64,000 bases of DNA from Thiorhodococcus drewsii AZ1. Its GTDB lineage: Bacteria > Pseudomonadota > Gammaproteobacteria > Chromatiales > Chromatiaceae. Below the pieces are notes generated by a model that was not told the origin of the DNA, made no database searches, and saw nothing but the letters and a program-made list of their open reading frames with translations. The stretch's first letter is position 1. Each line of letters opens with the position of its first letter. Shown in pieces: positions 48,706 to 57,696 of the stretch. The stretch covers positions 194,001-258,000 of the forward strand of contig NZ_AFWT01000001.1 in assembly GCF_000224065.1 (NCBI RefSeq), read 5' to 3'. Made by a program: the position numbers and the translations under genes.

Positions 48706-49164
48706 TTATTTGTAGGCGCCCACACCGCAGAAGAAGCCGCCGTCGTTGGTCATGACGTAACTGGTCTTTTCGCGAATCTCATCCGAGCCCGGATAGGGCC
48801 ACTTGTAGTCGACCCAGCCTTCGCCGGAGGTTTTTGCGACCTCGATCATGTTCTTGAACAGGGTATCGCCGTATTTGTTGAAATCCAGCAGGTTCTTGCC
48901 GACCAGTTCGGGTTTCATGGCGTGCGAGAGCATGACGCCGTCCATATCCATGCAGAAGACGTAGAGATCCTTCTCCTTGAAGCCACCATCGTCCGCCGCG
49001 AAGGCGGCGAACGCCTTGTCCTGTCCCATCGTGTTGACGGCGGTTTGTGCCTTCTGTGACATGGCCTTGGCTTCGTCGGGGGTTGCCATCTCTCCGGCCA
49101 GGGCGAGGTTGAAGGTGCCGCACAGGAGCGCGCCGGCCGCAATAGCGGTCAATCTTGAGATCAT
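48706..49164 (-). CDS. Secreted single-Cache-domain protein
   Basis: 152 residues. A signal peptide (LTAIAAGALLCGTFNLALA, cleavage near 23) precedes a single Cache domain: DLYVFCMDMDGVMLSHAMKPELVGKNLLDFNKYG and GWVDYKWPYPGSDEIREKTSYVM are typical of sCache sensors. There is no membrane anchor or output domain, so it is a free periplasmic ligand-binding protein. It may hand a ligand to a chemoreceptor or kinase elsewhere. It stands alone, convergent with the XRE gene. Confidence 0.85.
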   Translation of the reverse strand: MISRLTAIAAGALLCGTFNLALAGEMATPDEAKAMSQKAQTAVNTMGQDKAFAAFAADDGGFKEKDLYVFCMDMDGVMLSHAMKPELVGKNLLDFNKYGDTLFKNMIEVAKTSGEGWVDYKWPYPGSDEIREKTSYVMTNDGGFFCGVGAYK

Positions 49165-50686: not shown

Positions 50687-51640
50687 TCAGCCTTTCGGCT
50701 CGGCGATCACGCGGTTGCGTCCTTCGGATTTGGCGCGGTAGAGCAGTTGGTCGGCGCGCTGGATCAGGGATTCCGCCGTGTCGTCGGGCACGAGTTCCGT
50801 TACGCCGATGCTGGTCGAAATCCTGCATTCCTCTCCGCAGGGTCTCAGTGTGCCGATCTCTTTGCGCAGACGTTCTGCGGCGTCGGTCGCGGCGAGGAGC
50901 GGGGCGTCCTGCATGTAGAGAATGAATTCCTCGCCGCCGAAACGCCCGGGCAGGTCCGCGCTGCGAACCTTGGCGACCAGCAGTGCGGCGACCGCGATCA
51001 GAACTGCGTCGCCGCCGGTATGTCCGAACCGGTCGTTGATGCTCTTGAAGTGATCGAGATCCATCATCAGCAGCGACAGTTGGCGGTTGCGCGTCTGCGC
51101 GTGATCGATGCTCTGACGTAGCCGTTCCATGAAATAACGCCGATTGGCGATTCCGGTCAGCGGATCCGTGCGCGCCAGTTTTTCTGCGCGCGCGTTGGCC
51201 ATGAGCAGATCCTGATTGGTCTTGCGCAGATCCCGCACCAGTCTCGACATCTCGATCGCGAGGTGTCCCATCCGCTCGATGATGTCGCTGTCCTCGGCGT
51301 TGGCGAGTTCGCCGATGAGCAGCGCCCCGTCTCCAAGCTGGTAGGCATGGAACAGAAAGGTTTCGCCCGATCTGCGGTCGATCAGGACGTGCGTGATCGC
51401 CGTGCGTTGAGCGATACCGGCCTCGATATCCGGCGATTCACCGCTCGTGCTGGTGAAGAAGCTTGCGACCGTTTCACCGTCGGGCCGGTTGAAGCCGGCG
51501 AAACGTGAACGAAAGGCGATATTGGATTCTCGGATTCGGCCCTCCGCGTCCAGCTCGATGACGAGCAGGCGACCGGAGCTCATCACGTGGCGCTTCAGCG
51601 CCCACAAAAGATCCTTCTCGTGAGCATGGTCGAGATTCAT
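50687..51640 (-). CDS. Diguanylate cyclase, GGEEF with intact inhibitory site
   Basis: 317 residues from the ATG at 51640, which overlaps the stop of the cobalamin-protein gene by ATGA; a longer frame to 51970 runs through that gene and is rejected. A PAS-like N-terminal domain (about 10-115) and a coiled coil (about 120-155) lead to the GGDEF domain (about 157-315), with RFGGEEF at 233-239 and the I-site RSAD at 226-229, exactly five residues before GGEEF. It should make c-di-GMP from GTP with product inhibition. Input is probably supplied by the coupled protein. Confidence 0.93.
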   Translation of the reverse strand: MNLDHAHEKDLLWALKRHVMSSGRLLVIELDAEGRIRESNIAFRSRFAGFNRPDGETVASFFTSTSGESPDIEAGIAQRTAITHVLIDRRSGETFLFHAYQLGDGALLIGELANAEDSDIIERMGHLAIEMSRLVRDLRKTNQDLLMANARAEKLARTDPLTGIANRRYFMERLRQSIDHAQTRNRQLSLLMMDLDHFKSINDRFGHTGGDAVLIAVAALLVAKVRSADLPGRFGGEEFILYMQDAPLLAATDAAERLRKEIGTLRPCGEECRISTSIGVTELVPDDTAESLIQRADQLLYRAKSEGRNRVIAEPKG

Positions 51641-52776
51641 GCGGCGGAGGGCAGGGTGCGAGCCCAGTCGACAGCCGACTCGCAGTCCGGGAGTGAAAGG
51701 TCGGCGCCGAGCCATTCGGCCAGTGACGGTGCCGTGAGCAAGGCGCGGCCCCCGACCAGGATGTGGGTGTTCGAGTCCGCCGGGAGCGACGCGCGCAGAG
51801 TCTCGATGACCTTGCGTGCGATCGGAACGTTGCTGGGCAGGCTGATCGACAGGGCAACGAAGCGCGGGGAGACGCGCCGAGCCGCCTCGGTGATGCCCTC
51901 CAGCGTGGTGTCGCCCGGGAGCAGGGTGACGTTCCAGCCATCCAATTCGAGACAGGCCGAGACCATCCAAGCGCCCAGTTCATGGAACTCGTTGGTGACG
52001 GGGGCAACGATCGCCTCGCCTCGGTGGGCCGCCGGGAAGGGCTGGGCGTAATAGAGGGTCGATAGCATCAGATAGGCTGTGGATGTTGCCTGGTGCTCCA
52101 TGGCAATGGAGACGTCGCCGTTCTCCCAGCGCTCGCCGATCTCGAACATTGCGGGGTAGACGATGTATTGGAGCAATTTGGGAAAAGGCAAGCCGTTGTC
52201 CAGCAGACGATGGCAGTGCTCCAGTGCGTTGAGGTAATCGCCCGCGATCAATGATTCGAGAATCGCGGCATAGGCCTCGTGCAATTCCTGCGGAATTCCT
52301 GGTCCTTCGATGCGATAGGCCTCGGCGGCATGGATGATGTCTTGATGCGCACCGAGTATCCAGTCGTAGAGGTCGAGCAGGCAATGGGCCTCAAGCGCGG
52401 GCAATTGCGCCTGAATCGCTTCCTTCCAGGCCAGGTTCCGGGCGAGGAAATATTCGTAGGGAACGCCTTGCCCATGGTAGGCGTGGTAGGACCAGGACAG
52501 AACCTTGGCCAGGAGTTTGAAATCGTTCGTGCGAAGGATTCCCGCAATGAGCGCGGCGTGATTGCGGTGGTTGATTTCGAGCAGACGGAAGGGATTGCCG
52601 TTGAGAAAAGCGGCGATCTTCGGGTGGTGTGCCAGCCGGCTCGAAACCTGAGAGGCCAGTGCATCGGCGCGTTCGGCGTAAAGTTGCGCGGCGACCGGTG
52701 GACACGGGATCAGGGCCGCGATTCTGTTGGTGAGCGCGTTGGTCCGATCGGTGTTGATCGAGTTTTGAGTGGGCAT
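51637..52776 (-). CDS. Cobalamin-binding protein, CarH-like photosensor motifs
   Basis: 379 residues. An N-terminal all-helical domain (about 1-155) of unclear type, recalling globin-like RsbR sensor domains, is followed by a four-helix cap (about 165-245) with W217-x9-E227-H228 and a Rossmann B12-binding domain (about 252-375) with E263-x-H265-x-x-G268 and VGGRAL. Wx9EH and ExHxxG are the hallmarks of the adenosylcobalamin photoreceptors CarH/LitR, in which light breaks the Co-C bond. No DNA-binding domain is present; it overlaps the cyclase gene by 4 nt. Methionine-synthase or methyltransferase corrinoid proteins are alternatives, but they have DxHxxG. Confidence 0.88.
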   Translation of the reverse strand: MPTQNSINTDRTNALTNRIAALIPCPPVAAQLYAERADALASQVSSRLAHHPKIAAFLNGNPFRLLEINHRNHAALIAGILRTNDFKLLAKVLSWSYHAYHGQGVPYEYFLARNLAWKEAIQAQLPALEAHCLLDLYDWILGAHQDIIHAAEAYRIEGPGIPQELHEAYAAILESLIAGDYLNALEHCHRLLDNGLPFPKLLQYIVYPAMFEIGERWENGDVSIAMEHQATSTAYLMLSTLYYAQPFPAAHRGEAIVAPVTNEFHELGAWMVSACLELDGWNVTLLPGDTTLEGITEAARRVSPRFVALSISLPSNVPIARKVIETLRASLPADSNTHILVGGRALLTAPSLAEWLGADLSLPDCESAVDWARTLPSAA

Positions 52777-55116: not shown

Positions 55117-55324
55117 TCAATAACGAATCGGGCGCGTCATGGCGCCAGGGGCCCATCGGTGGCTCGTTAACTGCCGGATGTCGGGGCGGAGGCCAGGCGC
55201 GGCGAGCGGGCGGGGGAGAGTCGATCGGGCGGAACGCGCGAGGATGGCGGGGACGATGCCGTGCGGTCCGGCAACGATATGTCCCGCGATCCCGATCATC
55301 TGGGATGCGCGTCCGTCTGCTTTC

Positions 55325-55468
55325 CTGCGCCAGCATGACCCGGATCAGGTTCGAAGGGTCTTCTCTCAGCCCTGTATCGGTGCGCCTTCTCGCGAAAGGG
55401 TCGGCTGAACGTGGAATGTTCCGCCACCGACCATCCGCTGATGGCGGGTCGACACGGACACCCCCAGC
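55325..55468 (-). ncRNA. TPP riboswitch before thiC
   Basis: On the minus strand the THI-box parts are in order: GGGGGTGTCC at the 5' side, then CTGAGAGAAGACCCTTCGAA, then CCTGATCCGGGTCATGCTGG and GCGCAGGAAAGCA at the 3' side. These are the conserved P2/P4/P5 and ligand-binding segments. About 70 nt between the 5' part and CTGAGA form an enlarged, variable P3 arm. Leader of about 215 nt follows to the thiC start. It should lower thiC expression when thiamine pyrophosphate is plentiful. Confidence 0.93.
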
Positions 55469-55578
55469 AGTATGACGAGTTTTGAAACTAGCGAAAGGAG
55501 GCGGCGATTTCAACCGCAAATCGAGGCGTGTGATTTGCGAAACGGCAACGTGCACATCATGATGGGTTTGGGTGTGGC

Positions 55579-57696
55579 ATGACACTGACACAGGTTACCA
55601 AGGACATGAAACCGCCAGAGCAAGCGCAACCAGAGACGGCCATCCTCTTTCTGGGCATCGATTCCCAGCTCCTGCAGGAGCTGAAGCCCATGCTCGAGCC
55701 CAAGGGGCTGAGCCTGACGGACGTCGACGATCCAGAGGGTCTAGCCGCCCTGCGCGCCCGGATATCGCCGAGCGTTCTCGTCGTCGATCTTCCGTTCATC
55801 GGCGGGACCGAGAGACTTCCCGGCCTGATCTCCGGGTTGGTTTCGGAAGAAGGAGCCTGCCCGGTCGTGCTCTGTCTCTCCCGCCGCGAGCGTGGCGACG
55901 ACACCTTGGAGCGCCGTTTGGCGGCCTTGCGCGCCGGGGCCGACAGTTATCTGCCGCTGCCGGCTTCCTCGCGTCGACTGGCCGACCGCATCGTGCGCCT
56001 GAGTGGTGTCTTCGACAGCCGCCGATATCGGATCTTGGTTGTCGAGCCTCAAGCCGATCAAGCGAAGAATATCGCGATCACCATCGCTGGCGCGGGCATG
56101 GACGTGCTGGTAGTTGAGGATCCCATGAAGACCCTGGATCGGCTCCAGGCATTCCGGCCCAATCTGATTCTCATGAGTCAGGACATGCCAGCTGTCTCCG
56201 GGGCTGAACTGGCGGCCATCATCCGCGATCATGATATGTTTTTTGGGTTGCCTATCCTCTTTTTCTCCGCTGAGGACAATCTGTCGGGACAGTTGGATGC
56301 GCTTCGGGCGGGGGGCGATGGCTTCATTCCCAAACCGGTTCGTCGTCACCAACTGATCGCTGCGATCGAGCAGCGCGTGCGCGGATCTCGCTGGTTCCAC
56401 GATCGGCGCACCCTAGAGAACCGGCGCGAAAGCACCAAGGGGTTTCTGCCGCGCGATGTCTTTTTGCGCTATCTGGAGGTCTTCGTCGACTCGGGGAAGG
56501 TCGCGCGGGATGGTGTCGGGCTGGTGGTTTTGGGGCTCGATCAGCATGCGCGGGCCTTGGAGCGCCTGGGTATCGGCGGCTTCGAGCGCCTGCTGCGGCA
56601 GATGGAGGTGATGATCGCCCAGTGCATGGGACCCGATGAGGTTGCGGCTCGGCTGGACGAGCACCGTTACGGCGTACTCGCCTCGCGTCAGCAGCTCTCG
56701 GAGATCGAGTCCTTCGCCTCGGAGCTTTGCGCGCGCCTGTCCGAGGGGCTGGGGTTTCGCGGTGGCTCGAAGCTGACGGGTGTGACCGTCAGTATCGGCG
56801 TGGGGTTGCCGACGCCACCGCTGGAGGATGCGGGGACCTTACTCGCACGTGCCGAACAGGCGCTGAAGTGGGCCGATGAGGCCGGTGGCAACCAGTTTCG
56901 GTTGTGGTCGTCCACGGGCGGGCAGGACGAGGTGCCTGGAGGCTTCGGGGTGATTCGGCGATTGGTCAATGCCGCGCTCAATCACGATGGTCTCCTGCTG
57001 CTGCATCAACCCTTGGTTCCGGTCGCCAAACAGGGCGAAGAATTCTACGAGGCCCAGTTACGGCTCAAGACCCTGGATGGTGAGCTGGTGACGCCCACGG
57101 GGTTTCTCGCCTCGGCCGAGCGCGGTGGTCTGATGGTGCGGATCGATCGTTGGGTGCTGGCTCAGGCGCTGGAGGTGATGAACCAGCATCGCGCCAGTCA
57201 TCCCCGTATGCGCTTGCTGGTTCATCAGTCGGTCGAGACGCTGACCGCTCCAGACTGGTTTCCCTGGTTCCGCGAGCAGATCGTGCAGCGCAATCTGGTG
57301 CAGCTCTATCCAGTGCTTCAGTTCCAACTCGCCGATGTACGCCAGAATCGCTTGGAGGCCAAGTCGCTCATGGATCGACTGGGAACCTATGGCATCCATG
57401 CCTGTGTTGCCAACGTCATGGGCTCGCGGGAGGATCTCGCGCTCCTGCCGGGGCTTGGGGTCAAGTACGCCAAGCTCTCGATGCAAGTGCTCGCGCGGGG
57501 CGATCAATCCGAGCTGATGGGGCTCATTCAGGGGCTGCAAGAGCGCGGGGTGATCGTCATTGTGGCCGGTATCGACGATAAGGAGAGCCTGGAGCGTGTC
57601 TGGACCTGTCGCCCGGACTTCATCCAGGGTAGCTTCATTCAGTTGCCGGGGGCGGATCTGAATTTCGACTTCAGGCGAGCGACCGCCGAGGTTTGA
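55579..57696 (+). CDS. REC-REC-GGDEF-EAL protein with degenerate catalytic sites
   Basis: 705 residues. The first receiver (about 20-140) keeps Asp70 (VLVVDLPF) but lacks the conserved Lys; the second (about 150-268) has Ser200 in place of Asp (LILMSQDMP). The GGDEF domain (about 285-445) has RLDEHRYG instead of GGDEF, and the EAL domain (about 455-700) reads FYEAQLRL (EAQ, 491-493). It is therefore probably not a cyclase or phosphodiesterase but a c-di-GMP receptor or scaffold, like FimX or LapD. No signal or membrane helix, so cytoplasmic. Followed 11 bp later by a small unknown gene. Confidence 0.9.
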   Translation: MTLTQVTKDMKPPEQAQPETAILFLGIDSQLLQELKPMLEPKGLSLTDVDDPEGLAALRARISPSVLVVDLPFIGGTERLPGLISGLVSEEGACPVVLCLSRRERGDDTLERRLAALRAGADSYLPLPASSRRLADRIVRLSGVFDSRRYRILVVEPQADQAKNIAITIAGAGMDVLVVEDPMKTLDRLQAFRPNLILMSQDMPAVSGAELAAIIRDHDMFFGLPILFFSAEDNLSGQLDALRAGGDGFIPKPVRRHQLIAAIEQRVRGSRWFHDRRTLENRRESTKGFLPRDVFLRYLEVFVDSGKVARDGVGLVVLGLDQHARALERLGIGGFERLLRQMEVMIAQCMGPDEVAARLDEHRYGVLASRQQLSEIESFASELCARLSEGLGFRGGSKLTGVTVSIGVGLPTPPLEDAGTLLARAEQALKWADEAGGNQFRLWSSTGGQDEVPGGFGVIRRLVNAALNHDGLLLLHQPLVPVAKQGEEFYEAQLRLKTLDGELVTPTGFLASAERGGLMVRIDRWVLAQALEVMNQHRASHPRMRLLVHQSVETLTAPDWFPWFREQIVQRNLVQLYPVLQFQLADVRQNRLEAKSLMDRLGTYGIHACVANVMGSREDLALLPGLGVKYAKLSMQVLARGDQSELMGLIQGLQERGVIVIVAGIDDKESLERVWTCRPDFIQGSFIQLPGADLNFDFRRATAEV

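Follow-up and report, generated by a model that had tools for sequence, protein, structure and literature searches.

The window analysed here, a stretch of 64 000 nucleotides from the genome of Thiorhodococcus drewsii AZ1, contains on its minus strand two overlapping genes, referred to below as A and B. Gene A (51637-52776) encodes a protein of 379 residues, in which a predicted photoglobin-type globin domain is followed by a CarH-type cobalamin-binding domain (CBD), while gene B (50687-51640) encodes a protein of 317 residues composed of a conserved front (residues 1-150) and a diguanylate cyclase. The stop codon of A and the start codon of B share the four nucleotides ATGA (51637-51640, minus strand). 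A Pfam scan assigned B12-binding_2 (residues 171-241, E 8.9e-11) and B12-binding (residues 255-359, E 1.3e-15) to A, matched no family to residues 1-155 of A, and assigned GGDEF (residues 156-310, E 7.8e-44) to B.

The GGDEF domain of B (50711-51175, minus strand) carries the GGEEF active site at residues 235-239, separated by five residues from an intact RxxD inhibitory site (RSAD, residues 226-229); a preliminary description of this DNA was therefore right about the overlap and about the type of cyclase. The same description called the front of B (51191-51640, minus strand) PAS-like, which was not borne out: the front gave no significant match in Pfam or the PDB, and the best PAS matches, seen in relatives, had E-values of 0.08-0.14. 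The front ends in a coiled-coil-like segment and is the piece shared by partners of differing output (see below).

No cobalamin riboswitch or other RNA element was found at the pair, promoter and terminator scans around it returned nothing informative, no methyltransferase gene was present among the neighbouring genes checked, and a search of viral contigs for relatives returned none. Upstream of the nearby gene thiC there is a TPP riboswitch (55305-55475, minus strand; Rfam RF00059, 57.4 bits), and beyond thiC, on the plus strand (55579-57696), lies a gene for a response-regulator/weak GGDEF/EAL protein, in which EAQ replaces the EAL motif and which is possibly a c-di-GMP receptor or a degenerate enzyme; a homologue is also found near the A-B pair of a Thiocystis MAG (L032). 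A gene downstream of the pair (48706-49164, minus strand) encodes a small protein that has a Cache domain and apparently a signal peptide; among the loci checked, it occurs near the pair elsewhere only in Imhoffiella purpurea.

The cobalamin-binding and globin-like domains of A

The CBD of A consists of a helical cap (residues 171-241; 52054-52266, minus strand) with the motif GERW217-x9-E227-H228, and of a Rossmann domain (residues 255-359; 51700-52014, minus strand) with the motif N262-E-F-H265-E-L-G268, where His265 is predicted to be the lower axial ligand of cobalt. Residues W217, E227, H228, E263, H265 and G268 are all at the expected places, as the preliminary description had it (W217-x9-EH and E263-x-H-x-x-G). 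Of these, W217, E227, H228 and H265 correspond to W131, E141, H142 and H177 of CarH, which have been reported to be key for adenosylcobalamin (AdoCbl) binding (PMC11796333). In an alignment of 45 related CBDs, that of Thermus CarH among them, 44 have the same W/E/H/H set at the corresponding columns, the remaining one having R in place of H228, whereas MetH from the same genome, which is the one enzymatic corrinoid protein in the alignment, has F/V/V at the W/E/H columns. The view that these motifs set A apart from enzymatic corrinoid proteins thus holds against this control.

In a sequence search of solved structures, the nearest were SasPcob (E 3.6e-17), the CBD of CtMerR (1.1e-16), AbDPcob (2.7e-12) and CarH (about 2e-10), all ranking above the corrinoid enzymes. 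A Foldseek search with the model of the cobalamin domain (pLDDT 90.5) ranked the CBD of CtMerR highest together with SasPcob, followed by a mixture of corrinoid proteins and CarH, and among NCBIfam models the CarH model was the best match to A (4e-13), followed by MtgC (7.5e-11). These data support a CBD of the CarH/LitR rather than of the methyltransferase type, and place it nearer to photoreceptors than to the corrinoid proteins of methyltransferases. The kinship with CarH proposed at the outset is therefore correct as to the type of CBD, although the closest published relatives are the photocobilins. In the CBD tree, the A proteins of Chromatiaceae form one group, with low support (63/32).

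It should be noted that, of the four SignatureFinder motifs of light-responsive CBDs, namely GxxW, EH, GxxH and GxxxP (PMC11796333), the A protein of the window keeps the first two, while GxxH is changed to NxxH (N262) and GxxxP is lost (P287/T291). GxxxP is kept in several relatives with the architecture of A. With two signature motifs changed, A might be missed by a strict motif filter.

The N-terminal domain (residues 1-155; 52312-52776, minus strand) takes the place of a DNA-binding domain, of which, in agreement with the preliminary description, there is no sign (no HTH was found). It had been described as an unassigned helical domain of about 155 residues, which is true as far as Pfam is concerned, but proved too modest, in that both a structural model and a profile comparison point to a globin fold. 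Residues H70, H73, W95, Y109, W117, Y137 and W139 are invariant in the set A2. A search of the PDB with the sequence profile of the domain gave no match, so that the fold was resolved only by folding and profile comparison. The model, built from 14 aligned sequences (pLDDT 91.6), was closest in Foldseek to the globin domains of the cyclases DosC and BpeGReg, to allophycocyanins and to smURFP, with E-values of 0.004-0.1, probabilities near 1 and TM-scores of about 0.55-0.63 (0.69-0.74 for smURFP by target length); because none of these matches passes an E-value of 0.001, the assignment is a fold-level one. Independently of the model, the profile of the domain matches in hhalign photoglobin-type domains (94%, E 1.5e-7), among them those found at the C-terminus of Streptomyces CBD proteins, which have the CBD-then-globin layout of SasPcob, and a related N-terminal domain from Azospirillum thermophilum matches Pfam Phycobilisome (3.7e-9). 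According to the model and the profiles, therefore, the N-terminal domain of A is a photoglobin-type globin fold; joined to a CarH-type CBD in one protein, it makes A a photoglobin-cobalamin protein of the 'photocobilin' kind, with the globin domain first.

The alignment shows a conserved D-x25-W pair, with the spacing of Asp270 and Trp296, the bilin contacts of SasPcob (PMC10979010). By alignment and spacing, and not by structure, A keeps the Trp (W95) and has Asn69 in place of the Asp. At the same place AbPcob, which binds biliverdin poorly, has a His (PMC10979010). Bilin binding by A is thus possible, yet the residue at the Asp position gives no sign of it. Nor do the sequences point to ordinary heme binding, since no invariant His is present in the helix around W95, which we took to be the globin F helix; this weighs against A as a light-independent sensor (see below).

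Conservation of the pair and exchange of the output

Full-length A is present in 17 of 210 genomes of the same order, and in all 17 it is followed, in the same orientation, by an orthologue of B that either overlaps it or lies nearby; the two genes overlap or abut in most of the pairs inspected. The flanking genes (thiC, a hypE-like gene and others) are not retained beyond the two nearest relatives, while A and B stay together. The source genome (5.5 Mb) contains 72 GGDEF domains, from which a chance adjacency of about 1-2% per case can be roughly estimated, against the 17 of 17 observed. The conserved coupling of A to a diguanylate cyclase is thus supported, and the adjacency noticed at a single locus extends across the order and, as described below, to Ilyobacter. 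In one of the 17 genomes (G049), placed in the same genus as the genome of the window, the match scores of A and B equal those of the Imhoffiella purpurea locus. Three further genomes have broken or truncated copies of A: in one it is split by about 2 kb, perhaps by an insertion (G073:C1:870783-873930), and in two it is truncated beside remnants of B (G138:C1:2138980-2139420 and G166:C53:13911-14135).

All the sampled homologues of A but two are in Chromatiaceae. The same overlapping pair, annotated as a cobalamin-dependent protein and a GGDEF protein, is present in Ilyobacter polytropus (Fusobacteriota). The gene after A in an Elusimicrobia MAG encodes a 208-residue protein with a B-like front, a Cys-containing end and no GGDEF domain; here a C-x2-C-x-K-I-R-D-D box stands in the place of GGDEF (L038:4602-5228). 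In four other genomes (G028, G035, G193 and G654), the CBD and the globin domain are encoded by two genes that cluster with the gene of a signalling partner, which is a histidine kinase in G028, G193 and G654 and a GGDEF protein in G035; the kinases match the end of the B front with E-values of about 1e-6, and the GGDEF protein matches it weakly (E 0.008).

The globin domain also heads PAS-histidine kinases in other genomes (G066, and, by length and sequence, G104 and G124). Proteins of about 690-790 residues headed by the globin-like domain and having no cobalamin domain were found at four loci (L076 in G066, L060 in G150, L079 in G104 and L078 in G124); where checked they are PAS-histidine kinases, a sensor-kinase architecture unfamiliar to us.

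Judged from these gene arrangements, the sensor parts stay and the output is exchanged, so that the outputs of the partners look swappable. A broader reading, which we advance tentatively and hold to be rather less probable than its negation, is that these loci make up a split modular class, where a photoglobin-cobalamin sensor, encoded by one gene or two, would work in trans upon a partner whose front is a dedicated, previously undescribed receiver and whose effector is swapped (cyclase, histidine kinase or Cys-rich box), responding to light in phototrophs and to another cobalamin-linked signal in anaerobes.

Proposed mechanism and alternative readings

The sequence anatomy of the two proteins, the conservation of the motifs, the globin fold of the model, the coupling of A to B and the swapping of outputs are the basis on which A and B are read as a split photoreceptor-effector system, where the AdoCbl or light state of A probably sets the activity of B through the B front. 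We infer that A would bind AdoCbl in its CBD, with His265 below the cobalt and the adenosyl group surrounded by Trp217, Glu227 and His228. Green light would change the helices of the cap and the interface between A subunits, as would any other process that removes the adenosyl group, while the photoglobin domain would pack on the CBD and tune it, perhaps by means of biliverdin or a different bilin. In one of its two states, dark with AdoCbl bound or photolysed, A would contact the B front, which is the natural candidate for the contact site, and the contact would alter the dimerization of the GGDEF domain, raising or lowering c-di-GMP and consequently affecting attachment or motility. A role of the predicted system in linking light or AdoCbl to c-di-GMP, as originally suggested, is therefore plausible.

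As for the signal, light is favoured because the carriers are mostly Chromatiaceae, a family composed mostly of phototrophs, and because the source genome has a heme oxygenase gene (L067, G000:C122:801-1328), a possible source of biliverdin, divergent from a bacteriophytochrome gene. In the order, heme oxygenase co-occurs with the N-terminal domain (18 of 26 genomes, compared with 40 of 184; Fisher p 2.5e-6, uncorrected for shared ancestry), but for that reason lends the bilin weak support; it was not detected in four of the 17 genomes with full-length A, the same-genus G049 among them.

An alternative that deserves some weight, although we consider it unlikely, is that A senses the availability of AdoCbl, or the redox or oxygen state, and controls B independently of light, which would not be the natural signal. 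Ilyobacter polytropus is a fermentative anaerobe, in which light sensing is not obvious, and its copy of the pair, together with the two altered signature motifs of A, speaks for cofactor or redox sensing; in addition, the oxygen-sensing globin-coupled cyclases DosC and BpeGReg are among the top fold neighbours of the globin domain. In view of the Ilyobacter copy, placing the system 'in a phototroph', as was done initially, fits most carriers and is not general. Against a light-independent sensor, the adenosyl-contacting Trp and Glu are fully conserved, the CBD groups with photochemically verified CBDs, and the homologues come, with the two exceptions mentioned, from the mostly phototrophic Chromatiaceae.

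It is improbable that A acts on something else, such as a transcription factor or another partner, and that B is merely co-transcribed. A has no output domain, and AerR-type CBD proteins act on other partners, as AerR does on CrtJ (PMC5362033); yet the coupling of A to B is consistent across phyla while the flanks change, one partner, that of the Elusimicrobia MAG, keeps the front of B alone, and in other operons of CBD and globin genes the signalling partner has a segment resembling the front. Finally, a role of A as the corrinoid carrier of a methyltransferase, which would share the two Pfam domains and suit the second-best NCBIfam match, MtgC, can be rejected with hardly any reservation, given the better score of the CarH model, the photoreceptors as best structure matches, the W-x9-EH motif absent from MetH, and neighbouring genes that, where checked, include no methyltransferase.

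Comparison with known systems

The closest known systems are the photocobilins SasPcob and AbDPcob (Zhang et al., 2024; PMC10979010), in which a CarH-type CBD is likewise joined to a globin-like domain, and which share with the role inferred for A and B the theme of diguanylate cyclase control, both within the AbDPcob fusion and, for AbDGC, in trans. Illumination increases the apparent turnover of AbDPcob, as a cyclase, by more than 10-fold, and photocobilin domains supplied separately (AbPcob or SasPcob) change the activity of AbDGC in trans, apparently through protein contact; the effect of lit SasPcob is activation in the presence of biliverdin and apparent inhibition in its absence (PMC10979010). 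By analogy, the A-B pair looks like a naturally occurring case of such control in trans. It differs in that the globin domain precedes the CBD, an Asn aligns with the bilin Asp, and the cyclase, which has a conserved front of its own, is encoded separately in the operon. A photocobilin group with a C-terminal CBD was noted by the same authors and left uncharacterized (PMC10979010).

A also resembles photoglobin, described as a non-heme globin that serves in signal transduction and is either fused to B12-binding domains or associated with them (Schneider et al., 2022, Comput Struct Biotechnol J, as cited in PMC10979010), in that it combines the two kinds of domain. The 2022 survey may already list the architecture or the operon of A, which makes priority uncertain; it reportedly used gene neighbourhoods.

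With CarH/LitR (Thermus thermophilus CarH, 5C8D), A shares the CBD fold and the W/E/H/H ligands, but it has a globin domain instead of the MerR DNA-binding domain, and is paired with a cyclase. AerR/PpaA (R. capsulatus AerR, 7TE2) is similarly a B12 photoreceptor without a DNA-binding domain of its own that acts on a partner protein; unlike A, it has no globin domain, and its partner is CrtJ, not a cyclase. The BBAG-2 clusters (Rockwell et al., 2023; PMC10151467) contain separate globin and B12-binding genes, like the split relatives L070, L073 and L074, but carry a bilin reductase where the latter carry a signalling output.

The preliminary description knew of B12 photosensing from CarH and AerR, and not of this pairing. 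In principle this pairing has a precedent, as the coupling of B12, light and c-di-GMP as such is already known, both from the AbDPcob fusion and from the trans action of AbPcob and SasPcob on AbDGC (PMC10979010). Novelty seems to lie in the split of sensor and cyclase with the globin domain placed first, in the deep conservation of the overlapping genes, and in the exchange of outputs behind a front that is shared. In purple sulfur bacteria, the system would make attachment or motility depend on light or on the state of cobalamin, its swappable partners could serve as optogenetic parts, and the anaerobic copy in Ilyobacter makes the question of light versus cofactor sensing testable. While trans control has so far been seen, in the publications considered, only on mixing separately purified photocobilin and cyclase domains (PMC10979010), A and B would constitute a natural system of two proteins, with a B12 photoreceptor controlling a c-di-GMP enzyme in trans.
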